From positions 1 through 33,062 of the IMG/VR virus record IMGVR_UViG_3300032331_003484: 33,062 bases of DNA. One strand, given 5' to 3'. Below the pieces are notes generated by a model. It made no database searches. It saw only the letters and a list, made by a program, of their open reading frames with translations, and was not told the origin of the DNA. How positions within the stretch are numbered: position 1 is the stretch's first letter; every line of letters starts with the position of its first letter. Below, piece after piece: positions 5,754-30,219 of this stretch. The position numbers and the translations under genes are program-made. Source of the DNA: a virus.

Positions 5754-6689
5754 ATGAAACAACATACAATTTTGAACGAAAAATGGAGACCTGATACTTT
5801 AGAAGGCTATATTTGCTCAGACGGAAATAAAGATAAATTTCAAGAATTTATAAATAATCAAGATATACCTCATATCTTATTAGCTGGAAGACCAGGTTCA
5901 GGTAAAACAACCTTAGCTAAAATATTAGCAAATAATATTAATTGTGATTATTTATTTCTTAATGCTGTTGATGAACGAAGTATAGATGTTATGAGAGATA
6001 AAGTTGGATCATTCGCTTCAGCTGGATCATTTAAACCTCTTAAAATAGTAATACTGGATGAAGCAACTCATATTCTTCAAGCATCACAAGTAATGTTACT
6101 TAATATGATGGAAACGTATAGTATAAATACTCGTTTCATCTTAACAGGTAACTACCCAGAACGTTTAATTGAACCACTTCGTAGCAGATGTCAAGAATTT
6201 GATTTAGAACCACCATCTAAAAAGGTTATAGCCAAACATGTAGACAATATATTAAATATTGAAGACATTAAACACACACCTGAAGATGTTGTTAGTATAA
6301 TTAAAAAATTCTATCCTGATTTTAGACGTATAATCAATGCATGTCAAAAATATACTGTCAATAATGAAATTAAATTAGATAGTTCTATAACCGTATCTGA
6401 TGACTATAAGAATCAAATATTAGAAGTGCTTAAAAACCCGAAATCAACTGCATTCAATACAGTACGCCAAATACTAGCAGATGCTGATTTAAGTGATTAT
6501 ACCGACCTTTATAGATTTTTATACGACAATATAGATGAATACACTAAAAATAATGTTGGAGAAATAATTATCTTAATCGAAGAATACAGATACCATTCTG
6601 TTGTAAGAATTGATCAGGAAATTTGTTTCTGCGCTTTAATTAGTAAAATTATATCTATTCTTTTATTCAAAACAATTAAAATAAATTAA
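5754..6689 (+). CDS. 44: Clamp loader large subunit (T4 gp44-like AAA+ ATPase)
   Basis: ATPase subunit of the sliding-clamp loader, which opens gp45 and places it at primer-template junctions. At 311 residues it is close to T4 gp44 (319). It begins with the typical EKWRPDTL segment. Walker A is GRPGSGKT at 45-52, Walker B IVILDE at 98-103, sensor 1 is in LTGN around 130-133, and the clamp-loader SRC motif is at 144-146 (LRSRCQ). C-terminal helical domain follows. gp62 is encoded two genes downstream. The start context is A-rich (AAAATAAAAGTT-ATG). Confidence 0.95.
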   Translation: MKQHTILNEKWRPDTLEGYICSDGNKDKFQEFINNQDIPHILLAGRPGSGKTTLAKILANNINCDYLFLNAVDERSIDVMRDKVGSFASAGSFKPLKIVILDEATHILQASQVMLLNMMETYSINTRFILTGNYPERLIEPLRSRCQEFDLEPPSKKVIAKHVDNILNIEDIKHTPEDVVSIIKKFYPDFRRIINACQKYTVNNEIKLDSSITVSDDYKNQILEVLKNPKSTAFNTVRQILADADLSDYTDLYRFLYDNIDEYTKNNVGEIIILIEEYRYHSVVRIDQEICFCALISKIISILLFKTIKIN

Positions 6690-6696
6690 AAATAAA

Positions 6697-6942
6697 ATGG
6701 AAAACCAAAAACAAATGAAGCTGAACATTGATTTAAAATCAGCAGAAACAATTTATTCATCTAATGGTAATTGCATATTCGCAGAAGGTGTGATATTGAA
6801 GAAAATTTCTAAATTTGTATCTGGAACATCAGAAGATGCTATAGTACCTATACCTGTATTTTATGATATAGAAAGTGGAGCTATTTTAACTGAGTTATTA
6901 CCTAAAGAATTAAGAGAAGAGTTTGAAAACAAAGAACAATAA
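6697..6942 (+). CDS. Small hypothetical protein between gp44 and gp62 (81 aa)
   Basis: Not recognised. It lies between the two clamp-loader subunit genes, and its last 20 bases overlap the gp62-like gene, so translation is probably coupled. Predicted as a small mixed alpha/beta protein ending in a charged helix (LLPKELREEFENKEQ); no membrane segment or cysteine motif. It does not resemble T4 RegA, which is encoded near this position in T4 but is longer. Start: ATG after an A-rich TAAAAATAAA. Confidence 0.7.
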   Translation: MENQKQMKLNIDLKSAETIYSSNGNCIFAEGVILKKISKFVSGTSEDAIVPIPVFYDIESGAILTELLPKELREEFENKEQ

Positions 6943-10416: not shown

Positions 10417-11718
10417 ATGAATAAACCGTTATTTATAATTAGTAGTTGTTATGATACATACAGTGGATATGGAGCTAGAAGTCGTGATTTGATAAAAGCT
10501 ATTATTGAAACTGATAAATATGATGTTAAATTATTATCTCAAAGATGGGGAAATACACCTTGGGGATTCTGTAAAGACAACTCAGAATGGGAATTTTTAT
10601 TAAGTCATAATTTACCTAATAATCAATTACCTAAGCAACCTGAAATATGGATGCAAATTACAATCCCATCTGAATTTCAACCTGTAGGAAAATACAATAT
10701 TGGTGTAACAGCAGGTATTGAAACAACCGTATGTGCTCCTGATTGGATTGAAGGATTAAATAGAATGGATTTGAATTTAGTTTCATCTAATCATTCGAAA
10801 AAAGTATTTGAAGAAAGTAAATTTGAAAGACGTAATCAACAAACAAATCAAGTAGAAGGAATGATACAACTTCAAAAACCAATTGAAGTGTTATTTGAAG
10901 GAGCTAATTTAGATGTTTATAATGTTATAAACCAAAATCAAATTACAAACATCGAACTTGATTCAATTAAAGAAAGTTTCGCTTATCTTTTCGTAGGACA
11001 TTGGGTTCAAGGCGACTTAGGTGAAGACCGCAAAAACGTCGGCTTATTGATTAAGGCGTTTTATGAGATATTTAAAAATAAAAAGACAAAACCAGCTCTT
11101 ATTTTAAAAACATCAATGGTTGGATCATCATATATGGATAGAGAAGAAATTCTTAAACGTATTAAAATGATTAAAAAAACAGTTAACTCAAAAGACTTAC
11201 CAAACATATATCTTTTACATGGTGAATTCACAGATTCAGAAATGAATGAATTATATAATCATTCTAAAGTAAAAGCTATGATTAATCTAACTAGAGGTGA
11301 AGGATTTGGTCGCCCATTACTTGAATTTAGTTTAGTTAAAAAACCAATGATTACTACTAATTGGAGCGGACATACAGATTTCTTAAAATCAGAATTTACA
11401 ACTATGTTACCTGGTCAAATGACTAATGTTCATCCAAGTGCTGCTAATCAGTGGTTATTACAAGAAAGTCAATGGTTATCAGTAGATCAAGGTCAAGTAG
11501 GTCATTACATGAAAGATGTGTTTGAAAACTATAAAAACTATACTGAAAACGCTAAACGTCAAGCATATTATAGTAAAACAGAATTTAGTTGGGATAAAAT
11601 GAAAGATAAATTAGATGAATATTTAACTAAATCAATTCCCGAGTTCCCAAAACAAATTCAACTTAAACTTCCTCAACTTAAAAAAATCGAGTTACCTAAA
11701 CTTAAAAAAATAAATTAA
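10417..11718 (+). CDS. GT-B glycosyltransferase (GT4-like), second copy
   Basis: A 433-residue predicted glycosyltransferase. The N-terminal half starts with IISSCYDTYSGYGARSRD. The GT4-type donor-site motif is GEGFGRPLLEFSLVKKP at 294-310, followed by NWSGHTDFL. The C-terminus is an odd lysine/leucine/proline repeat (LKLPQLKKIELPKLKKIN) that looks like a tail rather than part of the fold. The last bases of the gene and the start of the next lie inside a 30-bp sequence repeated perfectly at the end of the following gene. Substrate unknown. Confidence 0.87.
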   Translation: MNKPLFIISSCYDTYSGYGARSRDLIKAIIETDKYDVKLLSQRWGNTPWGFCKDNSEWEFLLSHNLPNNQLPKQPEIWMQITIPSEFQPVGKYNIGVTAGIETTVCAPDWIEGLNRMDLNLVSSNHSKKVFEESKFERRNQQTNQVEGMIQLQKPIEVLFEGANLDVYNVINQNQITNIELDSIKESFAYLFVGHWVQGDLGEDRKNVGLLIKAFYEIFKNKKTKPALILKTSMVGSSYMDREEILKRIKMIKKTVNSKDLPNIYLLHGEFTDSEMNELYNHSKVKAMINLTRGEGFGRPLLEFSLVKKPMITTNWSGHTDFLKSEFTTMLPGQMTNVHPSAANQWLLQESQWLSVDQGQVGHYMKDVFENYKNYTENAKRQAYYSKTEFSWDKMKDKLDEYLTKSIPEFPKQIQLKLPQLKKIELPKLKKIN

Positions 11719-11732
11719 AATAAAATGGATAA
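11703..11732 (+). repeat. 30-bp direct repeat, left copy
   Basis: Covers the last codons and stop of the second GT-B gene and the ATGGATAA start of the next gene. It is identical to 12258-12287. The sequence is A-rich, so some similarity is expected, but 30 exact matches at equivalent gene junctions is notable. The two copies are 555 bases apart and bracket the 182-aa gene. Confidence 0.85.
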
Positions 11733-12273
11733 ACAATTTAATGAAGAAAAACTCATTGAAATATTATTTCATGAAGATGTAAAAATACTAAAAAATAAAG
11801 GATTACAAGAATATTATTCTTTAGCTAATACCTTACTCACTGAATTTTTAAATCCTGAATTAAGTTATAATTATGAAAAAATTGTAAGAGATAGTGGGGA
11901 ATTAATGTTTAAAATAAAATATGAAAATGATCCTTATTTTATTATAACATTAAAGAAAGGTGGGATAAATGAAAATCATTATTGGATTTTAGATTTTTAT
12001 TTTCCTGAGAAAGAAGATGGATTTGCTAAACAAGAAGGATTAAAAGGTGAAAATTATTTAGACACTGTTTCTAAAATATTTAAAGATGAAATATTACCTT
12101 TTATAGAAAAAAATCAATATCCTATATTATATTTCAAAGCATATTCTAATGATAGTTATGGAAATTTAAGGATGAAGGTTTTCACTAAAATAGTAGATAA
12201 ATTTATAAATAAAAACACATTTGATGTAGAAAAAAGATCAAATGAATTTGTAATAACTAAAAAAATAAATTAA
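11725..12273 (+). CDS. Hypothetical protein (182 aa), flanked by direct repeats
   Basis: Not recognised. An acidic and lysine-rich soluble protein with a likely beta-sheet core (ELMFKIKYENDPYFIITLKK, then YWILDFYFPE) and a C-terminal part PILYFKAYSND...KVFTKIVDKFI. That strand followed by a long helix faintly resembles the end of acyltransferase-like phage proteins, too weakly to name. It uses ATG in the context AAAATAAAATGG and ends KKIN, like its upstream neighbour. A perfect 30-bp repeat at both its boundaries means recombination could remove it cleanly, so it may be an optional cassette. Confidence 0.75.
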   Translation: MDKQFNEEKLIEILFHEDVKILKNKGLQEYYSLANTLLTEFLNPELSYNYEKIVRDSGELMFKIKYENDPYFIITLKKGGINENHYWILDFYFPEKEDGFAKQEGLKGENYLDTVSKIFKDEILPFIEKNQYPILYFKAYSNDSYGNLRMKVFTKIVDKFINKNTFDVEKRSNEFVITKKIN

Positions 12274-12287
12274 AATAAAATGGATAA
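12258..12287 (+). repeat. 30-bp direct repeat, right copy
   Basis: Identical to 11703-11732. Covers the final codons and stop of the 182-aa gene and the ATGGATAA start of the zinc-ribbon gene. A related but imperfect version occurs at the gp44/81-aa gene junction near 6680-6700. Confidence 0.85.
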
Positions 12288-12753
12288 TTTAATAATATGC
12301 AAAAGGTGCGACTCAGACGCATGTATGGAAACTGAACCATATAGTGGTATAAAATCATATCACTGTATGGGGTGTGGTTTTACCACAACAACTTTAATGA
12401 AAGAAGGTGAAGCGTTCTTAGAAGAACAAAAAGAAATTTTACCTGAATTGTATAAAGACTTAATGTTTACAGACGATGAAGGAAAAATTTGGATGCCTTC
12501 ATCTGTAAATTCACCTGAACAAGGAATGATATTTGCTAATGGTACAGGAGCAGATTTGTGGAAATGGTCAGCTGTAAAAGCAGTACCTGTATTAGAAGAA
12601 GAAAAAGAAAAATACCCAATAAAATCAAAACCAGGAGAATATTATAAATTCCGAATGGATATGGATACAATACAACATTTCGAAGAAGGTGATTATATGG
12701 ATGCACTAAGTCACATAGGTATCCTTCCTCAGGAAGAAAGTTTGGAAGATTAA
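12280..12753 (+). CDS. Zinc-ribbon protein (157 aa), function unknown
   Basis: The N-terminus has two CxxC knuckles, C7/C10 and C29/C32 (with an extra C15), giving a small zinc ribbon. The remainder is acidic with a conserved-looking WMPSSVNSPEQGMIF segment and a C-terminal acidic tail. I recognise this as a phage-conserved architecture but know no established function. It follows the preceding gene by 6 bases. The likely -33 box for the next promoter lies inside its last codons. Confidence 0.75.
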   Translation: MDNLIICKRCDSDACMETEPYSGIKSYHCMGCGFTTTTLMKEGEAFLEEQKEILPELYKDLMFTDDEGKIWMPSSVNSPEQGMIFANGTGADLWKWSAVKAVPVLEEEKEKYPIKSKPGEYYKFRMDMDTIQHFEEGDYMDALSHIGILPQEESLED

Positions 12754-13046: not shown

Positions 13047-13679
13047 ATGAAAATAAGTTACGGAATAACAGTTAAAGATGAAATAGTAGAAATTCAACAT
13101 TTGTTAACTTTTCTTTTAAAGAATAAGAGACAACAAGATGAAATCGTTATATTATTTGATAGCATAAATGGTTCTTCATCAGTTGAAGAATATTTACGAG
13201 CAAACTCAATAAATGATGATTGTGGGTTTAAATGGTATCCATATCCGTTTAATGGTCACTTTGCTGATTTAAAAAATTATTTAAGTAGTTGGTGTACTGG
13301 TGATTATATATTCCAAATAGATGCGGATGAGTTACCGAATGAAACGTTAATTGAGATGTTGCCGGATCTTTTAAGTCGAAACACTAATTGCGAAGTATTG
13401 TTAGTTCCTAGAGTCAATACAGTAGATGGATTAACTCAAGATCATATACAACAATGGGGTTGGTCGGTTAATGAGTCTGGATGGGTAAATTGGCCAGACT
13501 ACCAATGGAGAATTTATAAAAATAGTAAAGATATTAAATGGATGAATAAAGTTCATGAAAAATTGCATGGATTTAAAACTTGGAGTCTAATACCTGAAAT
13601 GGAAAAATTAGCACTTTATCATCATAAAACTATTAAGCGACAAGAAAAACAAAATAATTTTTACAACACATTATGCTGA
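13047..13679 (+). CDS. GT-A glycosyltransferase (GT2-like)
   Basis: Predicted glycosyltransferase of 210 residues. It has the N-terminal GT-A strand ISYGITVKDE, then QDEIVILFDS. The metal-binding DxD region is IFQIDADELP near 93-102, and the acceptor part ends YHHKTIKRQEKQNNFYNT. Immediately past the stop, a +1 frame continues for about 21 codons (HYADFYEVIFSEYQVG...) to a TAA abutting the next ATG. The annotated end may thus be a frameshifted one (see findings). Confidence 0.85.
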   Translation: MKISYGITVKDEIVEIQHLLTFLLKNKRQQDEIVILFDSINGSSSVEEYLRANSINDDCGFKWYPYPFNGHFADLKNYLSSWCTGDYIFQIDADELPNETLIEMLPDLLSRNTNCEVLLVPRVNTVDGLTQDHIQQWGWSVNESGWVNWPDYQWRIYKNSKDIKWMNKVHEKLHGFKTWSLIPEMEKLALYHHKTIKRQEKQNNFYNTLC

Positions 13680-13734
13680 TTTTTATGAAGTAATATTTAG
13701 TGAATATCAAGTTGGATTATTAAAAAAGAAATAA

Positions 13735-14673
13735 ATGAAAAAAATACTAATCACAGGAGGAGCAGGTTACTTAGGCTCAGTATTAACAGAGGTATTACTT
13801 AATAAAGGATACCAAGTAACAGTTTTAGATAACTTAACATACAAACAAACATCAGTAGCTCCATTTACTTATCATCCTAATTTCGATTTTATATTAGGTG
13901 ATGTAACTAATGAATTACTACTAAAATCATTAGTAGAAAAACATGATGTAATAATCCCATTAGCAGCAATTGTAGGAATGCCAGCTTGTGAAGCTAATCC
14001 TGAATTAACAGTTAAAGTTAATTATCTACAAGTAAAAAATATTACTAAATGGATTACTAAAGATCAAATGTTATTAGTTCCAAATACTAATAGTCAATAC
14101 GGTTCATCATCAGAAATAATAACGGAAGATAGTCTATTTAAACCACTATCATTATATGCTCAAACAAAATGCGACGCTGAAAAGGCAGTGCTAGAATCAG
14201 GTAATGGTATAACTTTACGATTAGCAACTGTATTTGGTATGTCATATAGAATGCGAATGGATTTATTAGTTAATGACTTTGTTTACAAATCAATAGTAGA
14301 TAAATATCTAGTATTATTTGAATCACATTTTATTCGTAATTACATTCATGTAAGAGATGTAGCGAATGTTTTCTTATTCATGATTGAAAATTATAATAAA
14401 TGTAATAATAATGCGTTTAATGTTGGTTTATCATCAGCCAATTGCACTAAACTAGAATTAACTCAAATTATCCAAAAATATATTCCTGATTTAGTAATTG
14501 TTCAAAATGAATTTAAAAAAGATTTTGATCAAAGAAATTATAGAGTTTCTAATAAAAAGTTGGAATCTCAAGGATGGTTACCTATATTCTCGTTAGAAGA
14601 TGGTATTCAAGAATTAATTAAAGGATATCAATTAATTAACAAATTTAAAAATAAAGATTTTACAAACTTATGA
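13735..14673 (+). CDS. NAD-dependent epimerase/dehydratase (extended SDR)
   Basis: Sugar-nucleotide modifying enzyme of 312 residues. The Rossmann motif GGAGYLG is at 8-14, the acidic NAD ribose binder is D32, and the segment PLAAIVGMPACEANPELT (76-92) is typical of epimerases in polysaccharide clusters. The active site is NSQYG followed by Y141-x3-K145. The motif does not look like the TDE triad of 4,6-dehydratases, so epimerase or oxidoreductase activity on an NDP-sugar is more likely. The stop overlaps the radical SAM start by 4 bases (ATGA). Confidence 0.88.
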   Translation: MKKILITGGAGYLGSVLTEVLLNKGYQVTVLDNLTYKQTSVAPFTYHPNFDFILGDVTNELLLKSLVEKHDVIIPLAAIVGMPACEANPELTVKVNYLQVKNITKWITKDQMLLVPNTNSQYGSSSEIITEDSLFKPLSLYAQTKCDAEKAVLESGNGITLRLATVFGMSYRMRMDLLVNDFVYKSIVDKYLVLFESHFIRNYIHVRDVANVFLFMIENYNKCNNNAFNVGLSSANCTKLELTQIIQKYIPDLVIVQNEFKKDFDQRNYRVSNKKLESQGWLPIFSLEDGIQELIKGYQLINKFKNKDFTNL

Positions 14674-16202
14674 TAGACGTATTATTTATATCACCAGGAA
14701 ATTCTAATGGTATTTATCAAGATTTAGCAAATAAATATGCTGCTATTGAACCACCAACTTGGGCTTTACTTTTAGCTCAATCGTGTAGATCAGTAGGATA
14801 TACAGTGTCACTTATTGATGTTAATGCTGAACAATTAAATAAAGAAATTGTAGCTGAACGAATTAAAAATATTAACCCTCGTCTAATATGCTTTGTAGTT
14901 TATGGACAAAATGTAAATTCAGGCACAGTGAATATGAGTGGAGCTATTTACTTATCTAATTATCTTAAAGATATAGGTGTAAATATTCCTATTAGTTATA
15001 TTGGTTCATATGTGCAAGCCGTTCCTGTTAAAGCATTAAAAGAAGAACCATCTATTGATTTTGCATTTACTAATGAAGGAGTATATGCTTTAAGAAACAT
15101 ATTAGCTGAAAAAACAATTGATACTAATAATTTAGATCATATTAAAGGAATTGTTTGGAAAAAAAATGGAATCCCTAAGATTAACCCAGCAGAAAGAGTA
15201 GTACCTAATGAATTAATGGATGTTGACCTTCCAGGATATGCTTGGGATTTACTTCCAATGAAAGAAAAACCACTTGATTTATATAGAGCTCCTATGTGGC
15301 ATGCTGAATATGATCAAAATAAAAGATCACCATATGCCGCTATTCAAACATCATTAGGATGCCAGTTTGGGTGTGATTTCTGTATGATTAATATATTAAA
15401 TAGAAATGATGAAGAAGAAATAGGAGTAGCTGGAAATTATAGTAATATGCGCTATTGGTCACCAGAATTTATTATTAAAGAATTTGATAAATTGGTTGAA
15501 TTAGGAGTTCATACTATTAAGATTACAGATGAAATGTTTCTATTAAATAGAAAATATTATGTTCCTCTTTGTGAAATGTTAAGAGACAGAGGATATGGTA
15601 AGTTTCTTAGAATGTGGGCTTATTCAAGAGTAGATACTGTTAGACGTCCTGACTTACTTTCATTAGTTAGAGAAGCAGGTATTAAATGGTTAGCTCTAGG
15701 AATTGAAAGTGGAGATAAATCCGTTCGTTTGGAAGTGTCTAAAGGTAAATTTGAAGATGTTGATATTGATAAAGTAATTGAACAAGTACATGCCGCTGAC
15801 ATTGAAGTAATGGCAAATTACATCTTTGGACTACCAGGAGATACTAAAGAAAGTATGCAAAAAACTTTGGAATTGTCTAAAGAATTATGTACATTCGGAT
15901 GGAATGCATATGCGGCAATGGCCTTACCTGGAAGTAAGTTATATAAAGACGCTGTATTAAATGGTATCCAATTACCTGATACTTATGAAGGATATTCATT
16001 TCATGGATATGATACATTACCACTTCCAACAGAAACTTTATCCCCGGCTGAAGTATTGGAATTTAGAGATAAAGCTTTTGATGAATATCACTCATATCCT
16101 TTATTTTTAGAAAAAGTAAAAAATAAATTTGGGCAAATAGCCGTTGATAATATATTAGAAATGTTAAAAATAAAAATAAAAAGAAAAATATGTATACAGT
16201 AA
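14670..16202 (+). CDS. Radical SAM protein with N-terminal B12-binding-like domain
   Basis: 510-residue radical SAM enzyme. The N-terminal 170 residues resemble the cobalamin-binding-like domain of B12/radical-SAM proteins, but I see no DxHxxG motif, so cobalamin binding is doubtful. The core begins YAAIQTSLGCQFGCDFCMI with the cluster-binding C231-x3-C235-x2-C238. It continues with KITDEMF, LALGIESGD (SAM-contacting strand) and ANYIFGLPGDT. This generates 5'-deoxyadenosyl radicals and releases 5'-deoxyadenosine and methionine. Substrate is unknown; neighbours suggest sugar or glycan chemistry. Overlaps genes on both sides. Confidence 0.88.
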   Translation: MIDVLFISPGNSNGIYQDLANKYAAIEPPTWALLLAQSCRSVGYTVSLIDVNAEQLNKEIVAERIKNINPRLICFVVYGQNVNSGTVNMSGAIYLSNYLKDIGVNIPISYIGSYVQAVPVKALKEEPSIDFAFTNEGVYALRNILAEKTIDTNNLDHIKGIVWKKNGIPKINPAERVVPNELMDVDLPGYAWDLLPMKEKPLDLYRAPMWHAEYDQNKRSPYAAIQTSLGCQFGCDFCMINILNRNDEEEIGVAGNYSNMRYWSPEFIIKEFDKLVELGVHTIKITDEMFLLNRKYYVPLCEMLRDRGYGKFLRMWAYSRVDTVRRPDLLSLVREAGIKWLALGIESGDKSVRLEVSKGKFEDVDIDKVIEQVHAADIEVMANYIFGLPGDTKESMQKTLELSKELCTFGWNAYAAMALPGSKLYKDAVLNGIQLPDTYEGYSFHGYDTLPLPTETLSPAEVLEFRDKAFDEYHSYPLFLEKVKNKFGQIAVDNILEMLKIKIKRKICIQ

Positions 16203-16885
16203 TTTTTTCCTCTAGAATGAAAGATAATCCTGATTTTGGATTACCTAATTTACTAAATTCATTTATAAAAAATACCACAGTAGATGAAAGACAAAATAGT
16301 GAATTTCTAATTAAATTTGATGAAGATGATAATATTGAAGATATTAAAAGTATATTAGATTTATATTGGAATTTAAATATAAAACCTTTCTTTTGGGAAA
16401 GACTAGGAGGAAGAAGTTCTTTACATGAGGTACAAACTTATCTATATAAATATAAAAATCCAAATTGTACTTGGATACAAGTAATAGCAGATGATTTTAT
16501 TTATACTAGACCCGGATTTGTAACAGAAATATTAAATATTCCTGATAATTATAATTATATAGGAACAGAAGCTTTTGTTTCTCCAAAAACCCAAGGTACG
16601 GCCCCTTGTTTTTCTAGAAAACTTATGGATGCTTGTTGTGGAGATTTTGGTCCTCAACCAAATTCAGATGGATTTGCTACTGGATTAAATGAAATAATGA
16701 ATCAAAAATATAATATTAATTTAGGATTAGATATTGAACCTTATTATTATAGAGTTAGTTGTAATACTAGTGAAAATTGGGATAGTTCTTTTAATAAAAT
16801 GACTAAAGATGGTTTGGATATAATATATAGTCTAATGTCTAAAAACATATATTTAAATATATTAAATGATAAAAATTATGACTAA
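16190..16885 (+). CDS. Glycosyltransferase-like protein (GT-A type)
   Basis: 231 residues, starting VIFSSRM, with an acidic strand end FLIKFDEDDN around 40-50 and a second WIQVIADDFIYTRPGF that resembles the metal/donor site of GT-A enzymes. The C-terminal part has DFGPQPNSDGFATGLNEIM. It overlaps the radical SAM gene by 13 bases and the following kinase-like gene by 8. Fold assignment is by pattern; donor and acceptor are unknown. Confidence 0.6.
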   Translation: MYTVIFSSRMKDNPDFGLPNLLNSFIKNTTVDERQNSEFLIKFDEDDNIEDIKSILDLYWNLNIKPFFWERLGGRSSLHEVQTYLYKYKNPNCTWIQVIADDFIYTRPGFVTEILNIPDNYNYIGTEAFVSPKTQGTAPCFSRKLMDACCGDFGPQPNSDGFATGLNEIMNQKYNINLGLDIEPYYYRVSCNTSENWDSSFNKMTKDGLDIIYSLMSKNIYLNILNDKNYD

Positions 16886-17846
16886 TATAACAAAATTAAA
16901 AGGTGGTTCTCTTTCTAATACATATTTAATAGAAGAAAATTTAAAAAAATATGTAAGAAAAGAAGTATCTATTTCTAAAAATAGAGAATATGGTTTTAGA
17001 AGATGGTATTCACAATTAAAAAAACTACAAAGATATTCTATATATTTTCCTGGGTTATTCCCAAATATATTAAAATACGGTATTAAAGAAGATTATGCTT
17101 ATTTTGATATGGAATATATAGAAAATTCTATTAATGCTCATGAATATCTTTTAAATGAAACTGATGAAAGTAAAATACAAAGTTTCTTTAATGAACTTAT
17201 TACAAAAATGAATTTATTACATAATATAAAAATATACTCTTGTAAAGAATCTATAGATTTATATATACGTGAAGAAGTTGAACAATCTTTAAAAGCATGT
17301 AATAATAAAATATTTTTAAAATTTATCTCAAACAATAAAATAAAATTTAATAAAGAAGAAGTTTATTCTCTTTTATATAATTTAGAAAAATATAAGATTT
17401 TACTTAATACTAGCTATAACGAAGAATATGAAACCTATTCACACGGTAATTTAACATTAGAAAATATGTTATATATTCCGAATGAAAATAGAATAGTTTT
17501 TATAGACCCTTATGAAGAGAATATAATAGATTCAAAGCTAGCAGATTACTCTCAGCTATTACAATCCTCAAATTCAAAATATGAAATTATAAATAATTTA
17601 AACTGTATTATTAATAATAATGAAGTTTTATTTGATTTACCTACTTATAAAGGTATTGAATATTTTAATCAATTATTGGAAGCTTTTTTAAAACAAGACT
17701 TAAATAATCAATCATACATGGTCGTCAAACTATTAGAAATATCACAGTTTATAAGAATGCTGCCTTTCAAACAAGATATAGATCCAAATAAAATGATAGT
17801 TTTTTATGGGTTAGCATCTAAATTATTTAACGATATAAATAATTAA
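16878..17846 (+). CDS. APH/choline-kinase-fold phosphotransferase-like protein
   Basis: 322 residues from the ATG at 16878, chosen because it has the AAAAATT-ATG context; an in-frame ATG at 16866 would add 4 residues. Kinase-fold signs: KGGSLSNTYLI (Gly-rich loop), YVRKEVS (ATP lysine K28), SHGNLTLENML at 188-198 and VFIDPYEEN with D210. The usual catalytic Asp of the H-G-D loop is Asn191 here, so activity may be altered or lost. It lies directly before the sugar-phosphate cyclase gene, and could phosphorylate a cyclitol or sugar (inference). The region is strikingly AT-rich compared with the cyclase gene. Confidence 0.65.
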   Translation: MTNITKLKGGSLSNTYLIEENLKKYVRKEVSISKNREYGFRRWYSQLKKLQRYSIYFPGLFPNILKYGIKEDYAYFDMEYIENSINAHEYLLNETDESKIQSFFNELITKMNLLHNIKIYSCKESIDLYIREEVEQSLKACNNKIFLKFISNNKIKFNKEEVYSLLYNLEKYKILLNTSYNEEYETYSHGNLTLENMLYIPNENRIVFIDPYEENIIDSKLADYSQLLQSSNSKYEIINNLNCIINNNEVLFDLPTYKGIEYFNQLLEAFLKQDLNNQSYMVVKLLEISQFIRMLPFKQDIDPNKMIVFYGLASKLFNDINN

Positions 17847-17847
17847 A

Positions 17848-18969
17848 ATGAATTGGAATATTGAAACATCTTTATCTATAAAATATGAAATAAAAAATTC
17901 ATCTGATATATTATCAACAAATAATAAAGATTTATTAAATTATATTTCAAAAAGAGTATTAGTTGTTATAGACGAGGAAGTTAATAAATTATACTATAAT
18001 AAAATTAATTCTTTTTTTAAATATAATAATATTGAAACTCGTATTGTACTTTTAAAAGGTACAGAAATAGAAAAAAATTTAGATAATTTACTTTTACTTT
18101 TAGAAGAAATAGAAAATTTTGGAGTAGATAGAAAAAACGAACCTATTGTTAGTATAGGAGGAGGAGTTATTTTAGATATAGTTGGATTAGCTGCGACTCT
18201 ATATCGTCGTGGAGTTCCCTATATTAGAATACCTACAACATTATTAGGTATTGTAGATGTAAGTGTAGCGGCAAAAACCGGTATAAATTTCTTAACAAGA
18301 AGAAATAGATTAGGATCCTATTATCCTCCAATAGTGTGTTTTTTAGATAAAACATTCCTTCAAACTCTAGATCATAAAGAAATAAGTTCAGGAATGGGTG
18401 AGATTTTAAAGATGGCTGTAATTAAGGATTACTCGTTATTTTCGATAATAGAACAACACTCAAAAAAACTATTCCAAACAAAATTTAACTCAGAGTATGC
18501 TGACGAAGTAATAGATAAATCAGTACAGGGAATGATTGAAGAATTACAAGATAATCTGTGGGAGAAGAACTTAGAAAGATGTGTTGATTATGGACATTCC
18601 TTTAGTCCGATTATTGAAATGAAATCTTTAGTAGACCCTAATATACCCGAATTATTACATGGCCAAGCAGTAACCTTAGATGTTATATTCTCAGCAATCT
18701 TGTCCTATAATAGGAATTATCTAAGTTTAGAAGATGTAAAAAGAATAATAAACACAGCAAAAGATATGAATTTACCAGTATATCATATTTCCTTTACTGA
18801 TCCCTTGCTGTTATATGAATCCTTACAAGACACAACAAAGCATAGAAACGGTAATCAGAATCTACCAATACCTATAGAAATTGGAAAATATACCTTTATT
18901 AATAATGTTACGTATGAAGAGATTTCTGAGATTGCTAGAATTTATAAAGAACTTACTTATGAAAAATAA
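17848..18969 (+). CDS. Sugar-phosphate cyclase, 2-epi-5-epi-valiolone synthase-like
   Basis: NAD- and metal-dependent cyclase of the dehydroquinate synthase superfamily, 373 residues. The NAD-binding segment is GGGVILDIVG at 104-113 and the core is IPTTLLGIVDVSVAAKTGINF. Metal ligands E185, H250 and H271 are in place. Two signatures favour a sedoheptulose-7-phosphate cyclase over dehydroquinate synthase: RNRLGSYYPP (152-161), and DYGHSFSP at 247-254 where dehydroquinate synthases have GHTFGH. No other shikimate-pathway gene is nearby; instead it overlaps an SDR and is near a nucleotidyltransferase. Superfamily is secure; the exact product needs an assay or a tree. Confidence 0.82.
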   Translation: MNWNIETSLSIKYEIKNSSDILSTNNKDLLNYISKRVLVVIDEEVNKLYYNKINSFFKYNNIETRIVLLKGTEIEKNLDNLLLLLEEIENFGVDRKNEPIVSIGGGVILDIVGLAATLYRRGVPYIRIPTTLLGIVDVSVAAKTGINFLTRRNRLGSYYPPIVCFLDKTFLQTLDHKEISSGMGEILKMAVIKDYSLFSIIEQHSKKLFQTKFNSEYADEVIDKSVQGMIEELQDNLWEKNLERCVDYGHSFSPIIEMKSLVDPNIPELLHGQAVTLDVIFSAILSYNRNYLSLEDVKRIINTAKDMNLPVYHISFTDPLLLYESLQDTTKHRNGNQNLPIPIEIGKYTFINNVTYEEISEIARIYKELTYEK

Positions 18970-19642
18970 AACTATAGTTATTACAGGAGTTACGGGTGGT
19001 GTTGGTAAAGTTGTCGCTAAGATGTTTATAGATAGAAAATGGAATGTAATAGGTCTTAGTCGAAACAGTCAATCGCTAATAGATATAGACAGTATATTTG
19101 GTAAACCAAATTTTAAAGCCATAGATATTGATATGAGTAATCAATACTCAGTTATTGATGCTTTTGATAGAATTGAGCAGATTGATGTATTAATAAATAA
19201 CGCAGCCACCTTTATTACAAAGCCTTTTGTAGAGTCTACACCAGAGGATATAAATAGAATTATAGATATAAACTTAAAAGGTTATATGTTTTGTACTTTA
19301 AACGCTATTAAGAAAATTAAAAAAGGAAGGATCATAAATATATGTTCAGTCTCTGGATTACATGGAATTAAAAATCAAGCTATATATAGCTCTTCTAAGT
19401 TTGGAGTTGCAGGATTTACAGAAGCAGTTGCTCAAGAGCTAATTAATAATATTTTATTCACAACCATATACCCAGGTGGGATTAATACCCCTTTATGGAA
19501 TACTAATAATCCATATAATGGAAATATAAAAGAACTACTAAACCCTAAAGACATAGCAAATACAATAAAATATATAGTTGAACTTCCAGATAACGTTATT
19601 GTAAAAGATATTACAATATTTCCTAAAAACGAATGGCACTAA
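18959..19642 (+). CDS. Classical short-chain dehydrogenase/reductase
   Basis: NAD(P)-dependent oxidoreductase of 227 residues. TGVTGGVG (9-16) is the cofactor glycine motif, NNAA (80-83) the structural motif, S130 in ICSVSG, and Y143-x3-K147 the catalytic pair. The ATG at 18959, overlapping the cyclase gene by 11 bases, places the glycine motif at the usual distance; an upstream in-frame ATG at 18881 lies deep inside the cyclase gene and is unlikely. Tight overlap implies it acts on the cyclase product or a close derivative (inference). Confidence 0.88.
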   Translation: MKNKTIVITGVTGGVGKVVAKMFIDRKWNVIGLSRNSQSLIDIDSIFGKPNFKAIDIDMSNQYSVIDAFDRIEQIDVLINNAATFITKPFVESTPEDINRIIDINLKGYMFCTLNAIKKIKKGRIINICSVSGLHGIKNQAIYSSSKFGVAGFTEAVAQELINNILFTTIYPGGINTPLWNTNNPYNGNIKELLNPKDIANTIKYIVELPDNVIVKDITIFPKNEWH

Positions 19643-19655
19643 AAAGTAATAAATT

Positions 19656-20363
19656 ATGAATTTAATATTAACAATGGCGGGTAAATATAGTAGGTTTACT
19701 AAAGAGGGATATAAAATCCCAAAATATTTATTACCTTGGGGAAATCATACTATTCTTTCAGAAATTTTAAAAAATTTTACAAAAGAATATCAATTTAAAA
19801 ATATTTACTTAATAGTTAATGAAAATGATAAAAACTTTTTTCCTCATTTAAATAAAATACAAGAATATTATAATATATCAAAAAATAATTTAGTAATTAT
19901 TTCTGATACAAAAGGTCAGGCTGAAACGGCTAATATTGGTATTTCTAAAATAGAATTGGTATCTAAAGTAGAAGGTCCTATCTTATTTCATAATATTGAT
20001 ACAATATTATATAATAGGAATTTTAAAAATATAGAAACATCTTTATTAAAAAATGATGGTTTTATTGATTTATTTAAAGCTAATAACCATGAATATAGTT
20101 ATGTACTATTAAATAATAATTATATTAAAGAAATATCAGAAAAAATATTAATATCTAATTTAGCAACATCAGGAATGTATGGGTTTTCATCAATTGATAT
20201 ATTTAAAAAATATTATAGTAATAATAATTTTATAAGTGAAATATATAAAGGTATGATAAAAGATAAACTAAATATAATAACAGATACTATATATGCTGAA
20301 AATGAAACTTTAGTATTAGGTACTCCTTTTGAATATTTTAATTTAACTAATTTAAATTTATAA
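19656..20363 (+). CDS. Sugar-phosphate nucleotidyltransferase-like protein
   Basis: 235 residues with the nucleotidyltransferase N-terminus LILTMAGKYSRFTKEGYKIPKYLLPW, which corresponds to the L-x-A-G-x-G-x-R...PK signature. The internal HNIDTIL fits the metal-binding Asp strand. It would activate a sugar- or cyclitol-1-phosphate to an NDP form. It follows the SDR by 13 bases. The tail of the domain is short compared with RmlA-like enzymes (about 290), suggesting a minimal MobA/IspD-size enzyme. Base composition is notably more AT-rich than that of the preceding two genes. Confidence 0.78.
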   Translation: MNLILTMAGKYSRFTKEGYKIPKYLLPWGNHTILSEILKNFTKEYQFKNIYLIVNENDKNFFPHLNKIQEYYNISKNNLVIISDTKGQAETANIGISKIELVSKVEGPILFHNIDTILYNRNFKNIETSLLKNDGFIDLFKANNHEYSYVLLNNNYIKEISEKILISNLATSGMYGFSSIDIFKKYYSNNNFISEIYKGMIKDKLNIITDTIYAENETLVLGTPFEYFNLTNLNL

Positions 20364-20364
20364 A

Positions 20365-21474
20365 ATGATATTATTATATAATATTTATTTAGATAAAGGA
20401 ATAAGAAATCCTGGAGTATACTATAGAGGAAATTACAATAACTATAGTAATATAGATATTTTTAAATATACTTTAGCTAGTGTAGTTGATATATATCCCT
20501 GGAGTAAAGTTATTATAAATGTTGTCTTACATCCCGAGTTTGAAAATGAAAAAATAAACTTATTTGAATATATAACAGATCTTTTTCAAAAACATAATTT
20601 AATTTTAAATAATTATAGATGTGAAAGACAAGATGATTGGAAAAAATTATATGATTTATTAGATAATGATTTAATATATTTTTGCTGTAACCATGATCAT
20701 GTTTTTATAGATAGTAATATAGATAATTTTAAAAAAACAGTAGAAGAATTTAAAATTAAATTATCAAATAGAGAAGCTTCTCTTTATTTTAGTCATTGGC
20801 CTGAGGTTAATAATGTTTTTCTTAATCAAGAACCCTTTTATAATTATTTTACATCTAATGGAGATTGTATTTTAGAAGAAAATTTTGCTCATACAATAAG
20901 TAATTGTTTTGATAGTGCTCAAATTATAACTAAAAATTTATATTATAAATGGTGGTTTACAGGAGATTTTAATTATCTTTTTCTTCCAAGGCCAGATTAT
21001 TTTAATGCTTTTTTACCAAATCCAATTCAAAAACTTCAAGCCGTTCCTTATAAAGAATATTTTAGACATTTTGATGGATATGCTCATTTACATAGTGATG
21101 AAAATAATAAAAAACAATCTTCAAATATATGTCCTCCTTTATTTATTCCTTCTGGTTTTTTTGAAGATAATATAAAATTGAAAATAGGATATAATGATAA
21201 TGATCAAAATTATGTAAATATCAATTTATCTAAAGAAAATTATACCGTTATAGATAATGATGGCACTGATATGAAATGTTATTTAGATGAAATTCCTTAC
21301 TTTTGGAAAAAAAGAATATCTAAGATAGATAAAAATTTTTCTTACGATGAACGTAAATATAGTAATAATAGAAATAATTCTATAATTTCTCCTTTAACTT
21401 GTGGGTTATTTCATAGAAGTTTTTCTAATAATTCCGTATTAAATAATATTAAAAAAAATTATAACATAAATTAA
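20365..21474 (+). CDS. Putative glycosyltransferase-like protein (369 aa)
   Basis: Not firmly recognised. It starts one base after the nucleotidyltransferase stop. The N-terminal 130 residues look like a GT-A half: ILLYNIYLDKG, SKVIINVVLH, and LIYFCCNHDHVFID where the HDH could replace DxD. The middle is aromatic-rich (YYKWWFTGDFNYLF) and the C-terminus is basic and Asn-rich. No membrane segment. The location among sugar-nucleotide genes supports a transferase role, but this is inference. Confidence 0.5.
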   Translation: MILLYNIYLDKGIRNPGVYYRGNYNNYSNIDIFKYTLASVVDIYPWSKVIINVVLHPEFENEKINLFEYITDLFQKHNLILNNYRCERQDDWKKLYDLLDNDLIYFCCNHDHVFIDSNIDNFKKTVEEFKIKLSNREASLYFSHWPEVNNVFLNQEPFYNYFTSNGDCILEENFAHTISNCFDSAQIITKNLYYKWWFTGDFNYLFLPRPDYFNAFLPNPIQKLQAVPYKEYFRHFDGYAHLHSDENNKKQSSNICPPLFIPSGFFEDNIKLKIGYNDNDQNYVNINLSKENYTVIDNDGTDMKCYLDEIPYFWKKRISKIDKNFSYDERKYSNNRNNSIISPLTCGLFHRSFSNNSVLNNIKKNYNIN

Positions 21475-21493
21475 CAATTAAAAACAAAAAATA

Positions 21494-22066
21494 ATGGCAT
21501 TAACAAACACTTATGGGAAGTATGCATTAGATGATACTTTCTTAAAATCAAAATTTCATGAAATAATCAATCAGTACGGAATTACTACGGTAATTGAAAC
21601 AGGAATTCATGAAGGAAGATCTACTTTAGAATTATCTTATATGGTAGATAAAGTTATAGGAATTGAAATTTTACAAGAAGCAGTAGATGTTACTAAACAA
21701 CGATTAGATGAATATGGCCGTACTAATGTAGATTTGTATGTAGGAAATTCTCCTATTATTTTAAATCAAATTATGTCCACTTTAGAAGCAGATAAATGTA
21801 TTTTTTTCTTAGATGCCCATTGGGAAAATTATTGGCCTATTAATGATGAAATTAAAACAATTACTAAAAATAAAGGAATTATTGTAGTACATGATTTTGT
21901 TGTTCCTGGTCATCCTGAATTAGGATTTGATTCTTATCATAATCAACCATTTACATACGAATTCATCCAACAATCATTAACAGAATGGAGTTCTACTCAT
22001 AGAGTAGAATATAATTCTCAAGCTAATGGTAGTTGTAGAGGAGTTGGATTTATATATAGTAATTAA
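21494..22066 (+). CDS. Class I SAM-dependent methyltransferase-like protein
   Basis: 190 residues with a Rossmann methyltransferase pattern. TVIETGIHEGRST near 31-43 is the SAM motif I (ExGxxxGxST). VIGIEI is the acidic strand 2, and CIFFLDAHW is the motif following strand 4. VVHDFVVPG then resembles FkbM/cephalosporin-hydroxylase-like methyltransferases. Probably O-methylates a sugar or related small molecule in the island; it would yield S-adenosylhomocysteine, a substrate for the nucleosidase encoded at 28054. Confidence 0.7.
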   Translation: MALTNTYGKYALDDTFLKSKFHEIINQYGITTVIETGIHEGRSTLELSYMVDKVIGIEILQEAVDVTKQRLDEYGRTNVDLYVGNSPIILNQIMSTLEADKCIFFLDAHWENYWPINDEIKTITKNKGIIVVHDFVVPGHPELGFDSYHNQPFTYEFIQQSLTEWSSTHRVEYNSQANGSCRGVGFIYSN

Positions 22067-22076
22067 AATTTTAAAC

Positions 22077-22931
22077 ATGAACACCCCAGAATTAAAAATT
22101 TCTTCTTTAATACCTAATATTAACATTCATACTTATTTAGATTCAAATATTAGAAAAAATACAACTTTAGAAATTAATAAAATAGTAAATACTTGTATTT
22201 CTCCTGTAGAAAATATTCATAAAATTGAAGATGAAATAAAATTAAAAACAGAAGGATATATAACATTTGATAATTTTTTATCTCAAAAAGAAGTTGAAGA
22301 AATAAAAAACACATTAATTGAACAGGAAGGATATAATACCCATGTTCCTAAATATAGTGATCAAGTTTTAAGAAAACTAACTCCTGATTATGGATTTAAT
22401 ACTTTAAGTTATCCACCAACTTCTTTGTTAAATATGCCAATAATCTTAAATAAAATAGTTGATCCTTATATATTATCTTTATCTCAAGCTTATTTAGGAT
22501 GTTTTCCAACATTATACTCATTAAATTCATGGTGGCATATATATAAAGGACAAATATACGGAACTCAAAATAATCATAGAGATCATGATGATTTTAGATT
22601 TTTAGCATTATTTATTTATTTAACTGATGTAGATGAAACAACAGGTCCTCATGTTTTCTATCCCGGAACTCAAGATGGTTCTGAATCTGATAAATCAATT
22701 GTTATAACAGGTAAAGCAGGTACAGCGATTTTAGCAGATACCTTTGCTATACATCGTGGTCAACCTTTACAACAAGGATCAAGATTAGTATGTTGGTGGA
22801 GATATGGACTAAATATCAATGCTATGCATTATCATGATGGTAATGATAATTTTAAATCATCTAAAGAAAATATATTTTCTAATATACCTAATACTCTTCA
22901 TAATGAATACTTATTTAGAGCTTTTTATTAA
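22077..22931 (+). CDS. Phytanoyl-CoA dioxygenase-like (2-oxoglutarate/Fe(II)) enzyme
   Basis: 284 residues from ATG 22077; an in-frame ATG at 22026 lies inside the methyltransferase gene and adds a non-conserved leader. PhyH-type features: YITFDNFLSQKEVEEIK near 61-77, NNHRDHDDF with H167-x-D169 as iron ligands, FIYLTDVDETTGPHVFYPGT, the distal ligand H226 in FAIHRGQP, and R236 for 2-oxoglutarate. Predicted to hydroxylate or otherwise oxidise a sugar or glycan intermediate. Phage members of this family are common in glycan clusters; substrate unknown. Confidence 0.82.
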   Translation: MNTPELKISSLIPNINIHTYLDSNIRKNTTLEINKIVNTCISPVENIHKIEDEIKLKTEGYITFDNFLSQKEVEEIKNTLIEQEGYNTHVPKYSDQVLRKLTPDYGFNTLSYPPTSLLNMPIILNKIVDPYILSLSQAYLGCFPTLYSLNSWWHIYKGQIYGTQNNHRDHDDFRFLALFIYLTDVDETTGPHVFYPGTQDGSESDKSIVITGKAGTAILADTFAIHRGQPLQQGSRLVCWWRYGLNINAMHYHDGNDNFKSSKENIFSNIPNTLHNEYLFRAFY

Positions 22932-22934
22932 AAA

Positions 22935-22966
22935 TTTGGAAAATTAAACTTTTTTAATTATATTAT
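22935..22966 (+). promoter_or_regulatory. Bacteroidota-type promoter inside the glycan island
   Basis: TTTG at 22935-22938, a 20-base spacer, then TATATTAT at 22959-22966. The first ATG of the next gene is 6 bases past the -7 box, the same geometry as before the sliding clamp. Motif-based only; the -7 box departs from consensus in its last two bases. Confidence 0.45.
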
Positions 22967-22971
22967 ATATT

Positions 22972-23019
22972 ATGGATAAAGAAAAATTAGTTACAATGAA
23001 TAAAGAAAAATTAGTTACA
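22972..23019 (+). repeat. Two tandem 24-bp copies carrying two start codons
   Basis: 22972-22995 and 22996-23019 differ at one position and each encodes M-(D/N)-KEKLVT. The duplication gives the glycosyltransferase gene two equivalent in-frame start codons. Confidence 0.9.
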
Positions 23020-23805
23020 ATTATATTCCCATCACGAGGAAGATATGATTTAGTTAAAAAATTATTATTATCAATAGAAGAAAAAACTTATAATAAAGAT
23101 TGGATTGAAGTTATTTCTATTTGTGATCATGATGATAAAGAAACACTGAATTTATTTCATGAGATGTCTTCTCAAATCACATATGATTTTAAATTCATAA
23201 GTAGAAAACAAAAAGAAGAATTAGATTTACCTAATGATTATTATGACTTAGGTTTAAAATTAGCTTCTGATTCTTATTTTACTTGGATATTAGGAAATGA
23301 TTGTGAAGTAAGTATAGATAATTGGGATGATAATTTACATCAAGCTTTGTCTCACTCCTACTCAGAAATTTTTCCTGAAATAGAAGAAAATAAAAGATAT
23401 TTTTATTTCAAAATAAATGACGATACCCATTGGAATGAAAAAGGAGAAATATTAAATCCATATGGTGATGAAAGTTGTTGTTTTCCTATACTTTCTTCTA
23501 ATTATTGTAAAGATTTAGGTGAATTTTATCCTAAAGAAATACCAACATGGGGTGGAGATACATGTTTATTTAATTTTGTAAAAAATTCAAATAAATTTGA
23601 TATTATAGATGCTATTGAAATTATAGGAATTAAACATTATAGCATGCATAACAAAAGGATGGAACAAGATGAAATTTCTAAAAAAGTACAAGATAAACAT
23701 ATTCGAAATAGAGTACATAATACAGATGGATCATCTTATGACCCATGGATGGTAAATTTTAAAACAATAATAGATAAAAGAAAAAAATTTTTATGGAAAC
23801 CTTAA
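22972..23805 (+). CDS. GT-A glycosyltransferase (GT2-like)
   Basis: 277 residues from the first ATG, or 269 from ATG 22996 in the second repeat copy. After the duplicated MxKEKLVT comes a GT2-type N-terminus, IIFPSRGRYDLVKKLLLSIEE, then WIEVISICDHDD and a donor-site segment FTWILGNDCEV. The acceptor side has PTWGGDTCLFNF and a C-terminal WMVNFKTIIDKRKKF. The upstream promoter-like box is so close to the first ATG that the second start may be the one used. It overlaps the next gene by 13 bases. Confidence 0.78.
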   Translation: MDKEKLVTMNKEKLVTIIFPSRGRYDLVKKLLLSIEEKTYNKDWIEVISICDHDDKETLNLFHEMSSQITYDFKFISRKQKEELDLPNDYYDLGLKLASDSYFTWILGNDCEVSIDNWDDNLHQALSHSYSEIFPEIEENKRYFYFKINDDTHWNEKGEILNPYGDESCCFPILSSNYCKDLGEFYPKEIPTWGGDTCLFNFVKNSNKFDIIDAIEIIGIKHYSMHNKRMEQDEISKKVQDKHIRNRVHNTDGSSYDPWMVNFKTIIDKRKKFLWKP

Positions 23806-24398
23806 AAAAAGAACAATTAATATCATTTGAAGAAGATATAGCAGACTGTTTTAATAATGCTATGATTAAAGCTCCAGTTCATTTATATTATGGAAATGAA
23901 GACCAAATGATTAATATATTTAAACAAGTACAACCAGAAGACTGGATATTTTGTACCTGGAGATCTCATTATCAGTGTTTGCTTAAAGGTGTACCACCCG
24001 AACAAGTTAAACAAGATATTTTAGATGGCAAATCAATTACTCTATGTTATCCTGAATATAATATTTATTCATCTGCTATAGTAACAGGTAATATTCCTAT
24101 TGCAACTGGTGTAGCGTTAGATATTAAACGTAAGGGAGGTACTAATCATATTTGGTGTTTTGTAGGTGATATGACATCTGAAACAGGTACTTTTTTTGAG
24201 AATTGGAAATACGCTGTTAATTTTGATTTACCCATCACATATGTTATTGAAGATAATGGAAAATCAGTTTGTACAGAAACAAAAAAGACATGGAATGTAG
24301 ATGAATTATTTTTTGCTAAAGAAACAAGAAAAATAATTTACTATCAATACGAAACAAAATACCCACATGCTGGGGCAGGTAAACGAATTCAATTTTAA
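23793..24398 (+). CDS. Thiamine-diphosphate enzyme, E1-alpha-like (short)
   Basis: 201 residues resembling the first two-thirds of 2-oxoacid dehydrogenase E1-alpha. HLYYGNEDQMINIFKQV matches the E1-alpha HLSIGQEA region, then DWIFCTWRSHYQCLLKGV and a thiamine-diphosphate/Mg motif starting GDMTSETG and ending IEDNG (usual form GDG...NN). It stops soon after this motif, whereas E1-alpha proteins usually run to 320-400 residues. The partner beta-like gene starts 4 bases downstream. Likely performs a two-carbon or acyl transfer or decarboxylation in sugar synthesis; no E2/E3 is encoded here. Confidence 0.75.
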   Translation: METLKKEQLISFEEDIADCFNNAMIKAPVHLYYGNEDQMINIFKQVQPEDWIFCTWRSHYQCLLKGVPPEQVKQDILDGKSITLCYPEYNIYSSAIVTGNIPIATGVALDIKRKGGTNHIWCFVGDMTSETGTFFENWKYAVNFDLPITYVIEDNGKSVCTETKKTWNVDELFFAKETRKIIYYQYETKYPHAGAGKRIQF

Positions 24399-24402
24399 AA
24401 AT

Positions 24403-24939
24403 ATGAAATACTTTGACGAATTAAAACGATCAATGGACTGGTTAAATGAAAAATCAGACACATTATTCTTAGGACAAGCAGTAGAATATGCTGGTACAGC
24501 AATGACTAATACTCTTAAAGATGTAAATAAAAATAAATTGCTGGAAATGCCTGTAAATGAAGACATGCAAATGGGTATGACTATAGGAATGGCATTAAAT
24601 GGTACTATACCTATTTCAATATATCCAAGATGGAATTTTTTACTATTAGCAGCTAATCAAGTAATTAATCATTTAGATAAAATTAAAATTATGTCTGATG
24701 GTGGATATACACCTAAAGTAATTATTAGAACGTCTATTGGAGCTCAACGCCCTCTTCATCCACAACATCAACATATAGCTGATTTCACATCAGGATTTAA
24801 GGCAATGTGCGACTGGGTTGATATTATTAGGTTAGATGAACCTCATCAAATATTTGAATCATTTAAATACGCTTACGAAAGAACAGATAATCGCCCTACT
24901 ATTTTAGTAGAATGGGGTGATTATTATGGAGAAAAATAA
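24403..24939 (+). CDS. Thiamine-diphosphate enzyme, E1-beta/transketolase pyrimidine domain only
   Basis: 178 residues from ATG 24403 (AAAAAT-ATG context); an in-frame ATG at 24367 lies inside the alpha gene and is unlikely. It matches the pyrimidine-binding domain of E1-beta: LGQAVEYAGTAM, LEMPVNEDMQMGMTIGMAL (containing the Glu that activates thiamine diphosphate), ISIYPRWNFLLLAANQ and HPQHQHIADF. The C-terminal transketolase domain present in typical E1-beta (about 330 residues) is absent. With the upstream gene it forms a minimal two-subunit enzyme. Confidence 0.78.
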   Translation: MKYFDELKRSMDWLNEKSDTLFLGQAVEYAGTAMTNTLKDVNKNKLLEMPVNEDMQMGMTIGMALNGTIPISIYPRWNFLLLAANQVINHLDKIKIMSDGGYTPKVIIRTSIGAQRPLHPQHQHIADFTSGFKAMCDWVDIIRLDEPHQIFESFKYAYERTDNRPTILVEWGDYYGEK

Positions 24940-24948
24940 ATATAAATT

Positions 24949-28605: not shown

Positions 28606-28648
28606 AATCATTAGAAATAAATTTACAAATAAATATAATTAAAAAATA

Positions 28649-29524: not shown

Positions 29525-29532
29525 TATATTTA
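29514..29532 (+). repeat. 19-bp direct repeat, left copy
   Basis: AAATGATTTAGTATATTTA, identical to 30214-30232 and exactly 700 bases from it. It covers the end of the glycosyltransferase gene and a TATATTTA -7-like box. Flanks the gmhA plus truncated hddC segment. Confidence 0.9.
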
Positions 29533-29548
29533 CACGCAAGATATTTTT

Positions 29549-30121: not shown

Positions 30122-30123
30122 GA

Positions 30124-30219
30124 ATGCAGTTAGATTGTATTGTTTTAGCAGGTGGTTTAGGCACTCGTTTACAGAGTGTAGTATCAGAAAAACCAAAATG
30201 TTTGGGAATACCAAAATGA
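30124..30219 (+). pseudogene. hddC: Truncated hddC remnant (heptose-1-P guanylyltransferase N-terminus)
   Basis: Thirty-one codons from ATG 30124 to TGA 30217-30219, encoding the nucleotidyltransferase signature LDCIVLAGGLGTRLQSVVSE followed by KPKCLGIPK. This is the first part of HddC-type enzymes, whose full length is over 220 residues; all the rest is missing. It begins 2 bases after the gmhA stop. The break coincides with the right copy of the 19-bp repeat. The TTTG of the next promoter lies within it. The short peptide may be translated but cannot form the enzyme. Confidence 0.85.

Follow-up and report, generated by a model that had tools for sequence, protein, structure and literature searches.

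What does it mean when two successive gene junctions of a phage carry the same 30 nucleotides? The question arises in a 33,062-bp virus record, IMG/VR IMGVR_UViG_3300032331_003484, the whole of which we analysed and refer to as the window. Here TAAAAAAATAAATTAAAATAAAATGGATAA is present as an exact direct duplicate, at 11703-11732 and 12258-12287, with a spacing of 555 bp. In each copy the upstream gene ends, with its final codons and stop, and after a gap of 6 nt the downstream gene starts with ATGGATAA. The gene between the copies, U182, and the features around it are as follows.

About 6676-6699, + strand: near-copy of the joint, at the junction of a clamp-loader gene and an 81-aa gene (2 edits in 24 nt)
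10417-11718, + strand: GT2, a 433-aa glycosyltransferase upstream of the slot (Pfam Glycos_transf_1 above cut-off; PHROG 2170)
11703-11732, + strand: left joint, copy 1 of the 30-nt repeat, with the GT2 end, stop, gap and U182 start (exact repeat; differs in G001 and L006)
11723-11732, + strand: AAATGGATAA, 10 nt, in the left joint (common also to the left and right joints of G001)
11725-12273, + strand: U182, an optional 182-aa gene of no known family (tentatively, a GNAT-like fold in residues 48-182)
12258-12287, + strand: right joint, copy 2, with the U182 end, stop, gap and ZNR157 start (identical in G001)
12278-12287, + strand: AAATGGATAA, 10 nt, in the right joint
12280-12753, + strand: ZNR157, a 157-aa zinc-ribbon-like protein downstream of the slot (CxxC...CxxC by eye; Pfam zinc-ribbon-type matches sub-threshold only)

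The repeat lies far beyond chance

The 44 gene junctions of the window form 946 pairs, and the next-longest string common to two junctions is 16 nt. Under a position-specific model, an identical 30-nt pair is expected 2.6e-11 times per pair and 2.4e-8 times across all pairs. In 300 simulated A-rich junction sets the best pair still had 6 mismatches in 30, against the 0 observed. Even for A-rich gene starts, the 30-bp repeat far exceeds chance expectation. The initial annotation had noticed the 30-base identity and proposed comparison with a composition-matched model, and both the duplicate and its excess are borne out.

Across 1,312,399 bp of related-phage loci, a control set whose loci partly overlap and from which the immuto locus L121 was left out, there are 8 distinct exact repeats of at least 20 nt within 6 kb. 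In only two of them, the window pair and a tandem-paralogue pair in L026, do both copies lie at start codons and enclose a single gene. The L026 genes (L026:196-667) adjoin one another and are exactly alike over 33 nt, beginning one base before their start codons. Elsewhere in the window, an exact 22-nt repeat with a spacing of 24 nt (22976-23021) lies within the gene starting at 22972.

U182 is an optional gene in a variable slot

The window comes from a phage of Flavobacterium-like bacteria, in which U182 is an accessory gene. The nearest annotated relative in the region searched is the 160-kb Flavobacterium phage immuto, with 67.5% nucleotide identity in GT2 and the same gene order. Immuto (Immutovirus immuto, vB_FspM_immuto_2-6A, MW353175) keeps the block of GT1, GT2, a hypothetical gene and a family 2 glycosyltransferase in the order of the window. 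Unlike the window, it is without U182, and GT2 directly adjoins the next gene.

We gathered further loci by scans with U182, GT2 (the best 80 of 595 confirmed matches) and ZNR157, and counted 99 with both flanks present that were non-redundant by flank sequence; L004 (which matches L003), L006 (whose contig ends inside U182) and L089 (in which GT2 is broken) were left out. Inserts longer than 150 bp at the GT2/ZNR157 junction were present in 13 of the 99 loci (5 with U182, 8 with other contents), and 86 had none; U182 carriers are over-represented in this set, so these counts are not population frequencies. The five carriers are the window, the sister genome G001 (locus L002), L003, L020 and L123. 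Among the 86 insert-free loci, ATGGATAA serves as both GT2 stop and ZNR157 start in 46, the genes overlap in another way in 16, and they are adjacent or up to 62 nt apart in 24. A U182 homologue (59% amino acid identity) also occupies the preceding junction, GT1/GT2, in one of 96 loci (L005). In the excluded L089, a 78-nt sequence is repeated 77 nt downstream within GT2 (L089:5575-5729); the alignment stops at residue 344, with an in-frame stop after it.

In all, 7 IMG/VR records besides the window were found to carry U182. It is present in 4 of the 20 records searched whole and absent from 5 records of 147-163 kb that were searched whole. Homologues were found neither in annotated phages nor among 99 pattern matches in genome_contigs. 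U182 is an optional module in a variable slot, formed by a stop/start joint between two conserved genes. This is what the initial annotation had anticipated in suggesting that the gene could be gained or lost cleanly, and the relatives it proposed to look for, lacking the gene and with a single copy of the junction, exist (L090 and L091).

The left joint of the window is probably derived

G001 is 97% identical to the window over the first 13.7 kb, with the same U182 and right joint. Its left joint is CTTAAAAAAATAGAATCAAATGGATAAACAATTT, which shares TAAAAAAATA and AAATGGATAA, 10 nt each, with the right joint; at the left start codon, AAATGGATAA is the part that matches. The empty relatives L090 and L091 have a joint identical to this left joint over 26 nt, and in an exact-match scan of viral_contigs the 26-nt string occurred in no records other than those of G001, L090 and L091. 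By eye, G001 minus U182 between its AAATGGATAA copies gives the exact L090 joint. The left joint of L006, whose right joint lies beyond the contig end, is CTTAAAAAAATAGATTAGAATCAAATGGATAAACAATTT. Relative to G001, with which it has GAATCAAATGG in common, it carries an insertion of 5 nt already similar to the right joint, a point against overwriting of the left joint in the window. The encoded C-terminus of GT2 differs accordingly by genome, being ...KKIN in the window, ...KKIESNG in G001 and ...KKID in L006, each followed by the stop. Because the left joint of G001 is that of the empty relatives, and because L006 shares GAATCAAATGG with G001, the G001/L090 form is probably the older one and the left copy in the window derived.

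The window differs from L006 between 11520 and 11964 only at 11713, 11718 and 11722, and each of the three differences makes the left joint match the right. The probability that random substitutions land on those 3 of 30 sites is 1/4060 before allowing for the base, but the clustering of the three changes by itself is not significant (P = 0.067). Among the U182 carriers compared, the 30-bp identity appears specific to the window: in L003, L020 and L123 both joints lack the 30-bp form.

The explanation that we favour, with fair rather than strong confidence and from the comparison of three genomes, is that U182 is optional and exchanged, that the left joint was overwritten by the right joint, and that the 30-bp repeat is the resulting scar. 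Gain and loss of U182 would proceed by recombination between short homologies such as AAATGGATAA, perhaps assisted by homing-endonuclease-like genes, which use the same slots in relatives. In the lineage of the window, the left joint would then have been replaced by right-joint sequence, in a tract ending within TAAAAAAATA and AAATGGATAA, both already common to the joints of G001. Several routes would yield this same product: gene conversion, template switching, tandem amplification with later collapse, or loss and subsequent re-gain. G001 has 10 nt of homology at the ends of U182 and the window 30 nt; the working homology is likely the roughly 10 nt of AAATGGATAA, and the 30-bp identity a later by-product of the overwriting. 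An A-rich stretch before the ATG suits Flavobacterium translation starts, so the copied sequence would be tolerated. The repeat is predicted now to ease loss or tandem amplification of U182.

In L003, L020 and L123 the right joint is without ATGGATAA, which speaks against this explanation. The argument for overwriting is also weakened because the matching empties, L090 and L091, are not the nearest to the window in GT2, their amino acid identity being 73% where GT2 aligns and 87% in ZNR157. The nearest are L008 (90%), with a 62-nt gap, and L009 (86%), in which the genes are directly adjacent without overlap. Neither has a G001-type joint, which lends weight to an ancestral duplication, whereby U182 brought a copy of its target joint with it on insertion, and joint divergence in G001 and L006 came later; a perfect repeat is also what a fresh insertion should leave. 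However, independent decay would not restore in G001 the 26 nt of L090 and L091, nor the GAATCAAATGG that L006 shares, and the three more distant carriers have the 30-bp form at neither joint. We consider this origin unlikely.

Convergence could also bring the joints together, both having drifted alike under a preference of Bacteroidota initiation for A near the start codon. All three changes of the window relative to L006 are to A, a gapped near-copy stands at 6676-6699, and adenine at -3 favours initiation in Flavobacterium johnsoniae (PMC6847099). Set against this, the simulated A-rich sets never came closer than 6 mismatches in 30, and the 25-nt core of the repeat occurs in a single viral_contigs record (IMG/VR) besides the window's own, where it is the right joint of G001. 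Independent drift to the same 30 nt seems to us an improbable account. A metagenome assembler might instead have put the right joint in place of the left, the source being an IMG/VR record. Yet apart from the joint the locus runs collinear with G001 and L006, both reading frames are open, and the two short copies are separated by 555 bp; such an artefact is very improbable, and overwriting in the phage itself is the reading that we retain.

The joint is probably not a general recombination module

The initial annotation had proposed that the shared 30-mer acts as a modular recombination joint. This part of it is not supported: in the two closest carriers of the gene, G001 and L006, the left joint differs from that of the window, and other indels share strings barely above background. 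Across 39 clusters of 132 gene-scale indels in relatives, the shared joint string averaged 7.4 nt against 6.9 nt for 3000 random gene-start pairs (p = 0.012; the survey used an 80% flank threshold, and the U182 event of the window was not the case scored). Because this difference is so small, short homology is only weakly favoured as a general cause. Isolated longer strings were seen in L062 (13 nt, away from gene starts) and in L082 (12 nt, AAAATGAAACTA). The latter is a second shared start-codon joint, common to the start of a 669-bp insert (L082:2512-3182) and the start of the downstream gene.

The third junction, at 6676-6699, bears on the same idea. The annotated near-copy around 6680-6700 is real when gaps are allowed (2 edits in 24 nt, a score reached by 0 of 400 simulated sets in a test picked post hoc), but it is weaker than the repeat itself, as the in-register match has 8 mismatches in 30 and lies within chance. 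Its sequence is the same in G001 and different in the L009 record. A regular-expression scan for near-copies in G003, G008 and G004 gave 0 matches with a query that also misses the known near-copy of the window.

PeSL are reportedly promoter/stem-loop cassettes of T4-type phages. The U182 joint resembles them in being a repeated junction sequence next to exchangeable genes, and differs in having no stem-loop and no excess of promoter-like sites. The idea that phages shuffle genes with the 30-mer as a conserved cassette of this kind, for recombination or regulation, draws on its exact placement on two gene junctions, on the similar third one, and on a promoter-like site (12248-12276, one of five in 11500-12500) that extends into the right joint. 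The 30-mer was nevertheless not seen at other indels or at the U182 of other phages, and we hold a conserved cassette to be highly improbable. A promoter/terminator cassette was rejected, there being no stable hairpin (z -0.04 and 1.13) and 5 promoter-like sites against 7.4 in shuffled sequence; the sole terminator-like site, 12337-12370, is inside ZNR157. PeSL identity was likewise rejected for want of a stem-loop and of any promoter-like excess in the repeated unit, even though the 12248-12276 site reaches the right joint.

For the mosaicism of lambdoid phages, a boundary-sequence model stands opposite random illegitimate recombination. U182 is like the former in its exchange at gene boundaries and in the short common boundary AAATGGATAA. 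The 39 indel clusters, in contrast, share strings barely longer than those of random starts and are nearer to the random-recombination view.

U182 moves between phage lineages

U182 of the window has 85.2, 87.8 and 87.6% nucleotide identity to that of L003, L020 and L123, whereas GT1, GT2, ZNR157 and nx210 have 57-76% to the same loci. Because U182 is 85-88% identical between phages whose flanks are so much more diverged, the comparison indicates that it has been exchanged between phage lineages. Slow evolution does not simply account for the excess, because in L005, where U182 lies between GT1 and GT2, its conservation does not exceed that of its neighbours (70% against 66-72%).

A larger replacement may lie further along the window. 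Over 16.5 kb (13675-30187) there is no same-strand blastn match of at least 80 nt to G001, while both sides are 97-98% identical. Several genes of this stretch are of sugar and glycan type (an epimerase, a DegT aminotransferase, a dTDP-sugar isomerase, SIS and a GHMP kinase), and it looks like a swapped glycan cassette. Two pieces within it, 13716-16190 and 23805-28620, match G003 at 95-97% identity, compared with 72-89% for neighbouring matches; at that place G003 lacks the 7.6 kb that separate them. These identities point to a recent transfer of cassette pieces between phage lineages.

The U182 protein and other contents of the slots

U182 has no credible family match in Pfam, PHROGs or NCBIfam; we discarded the NCBIfam match to VanL (E 0.0026), which scored 17 bits where the cut-off is 750. 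It matched no PDB sequence, and profile comparison with the insert protein of L010 gave no match. Up to E = 1, Pfam and PHROGs contain no GIY-YIG, HNH or NUMOD match to it, and we rejected U182 as a free-standing homing endonuclease. No GNAT sequence family was matched in Pfam or NCBIfam, again up to E = 1, with five members scanned. The AlphaFold model has a mean pLDDT of 73, with residues 1-25 poor, and gave no confident Foldseek match (best E 0.14). Among the 50 VIA-align matches listed, nearly all are acetyltransferases, at Z 6.8-7.8 and mostly with 97-127 residues aligned; below Z 8, VIA-align warns, similarity may mean merely a common arrangement. We treat the GNAT-like fold as a tentative lead from the model.

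The same slots hold other genes, of which 9 insert proteins were compared with Pfam. The L101 insert passes the curated cut-off for Acb1 and the L052 insert narrowly misses it; L060 and L115 have homologues of these (blastp). These Acb1-like (anti-CBASS) genes occur at both the GT1/GT2 and the GT2/ZNR157 junctions, as U182 does. The L026 insert between GT1 and GT2 encodes a 243-aa protein with a weak, sub-threshold RNA 2'-phosphotransferase (Tpt1/KptA) match. Endonuclease-type matches (GIY-YIG, HNH, NUMOD1, NUMOD3) were found in the inserts of L052, L060, L089, L101 and L108, the L109 protein being the same as that of L108; only L101 (NUMOD1, NUMOD3) and L089 (NUMOD3) exceed curated cut-offs.

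In L101 and L052, an Acb1-like gene adjoins an endonuclease-like gene. Thus, homing with co-conversion is a plausible vehicle for U182, since endonuclease-like genes lie beside Acb1-like genes in the same slots. The insert-ORF survey found no endonuclease-like gene beside U182 in any U182 insert; its script skips ORFs that cross insert edges and printed none for L003 at GT1/GT2, L073, L084, L101 at ZNR157/nx210, and L120. A counter-defence role for U182 is a guess from location. That U182 is a counter-defence protein of GNAT-like fold, in a slot worked by homing endonucleases with ATGGATAA as the exchange joint and the repeat as a recent trace of amplification and collapse under host defence, is as a whole unlikely.

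Discussion

The U182 insert ends at gene boundaries, and relatives retain a single intact joint, as short-homology exchange would leave them. Comparable events are known from experiment. In T4, dmd-tifA is amplified, and large deletions occur, between short homologies, which measured 2-10 bp in earlier work that the study cites (PMC9391042). Segmental amplification in T6 is driven by the homing endonuclease SegB, is likely to take place between microhomologies, and needs UvsX and UvsY (PMC13096335). Like U182, T4 dmd-tifA under ToxIN selection (eLife 2022, PMC9391042) and T6 tRNA-Tyr/segB (Nat Commun 2026, PMC13096335) are gene-sized segments bounded by short homology. Phage recombination duplicates or removes these T4 and T6 segments; anti-defence and other accessory genes take part, as does a homing endonuclease in the case of T6. 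U182 differs in being known from comparison of natural sequences alone, with no tandem copies observed and no known function. Events of this kind are known from T4; the family of U182 and its slot are new instances.

If the guess of a counter-defence role is right, the slot is a place to seek more such genes. The locus offers a natural case, at single-base resolution and with filled, intermediate and empty relatives, of one phage gene being gained and lost with its neighbours unharmed. It also suggests that exchange can produce a perfect repeat at gene junctions instead of being caused by one.
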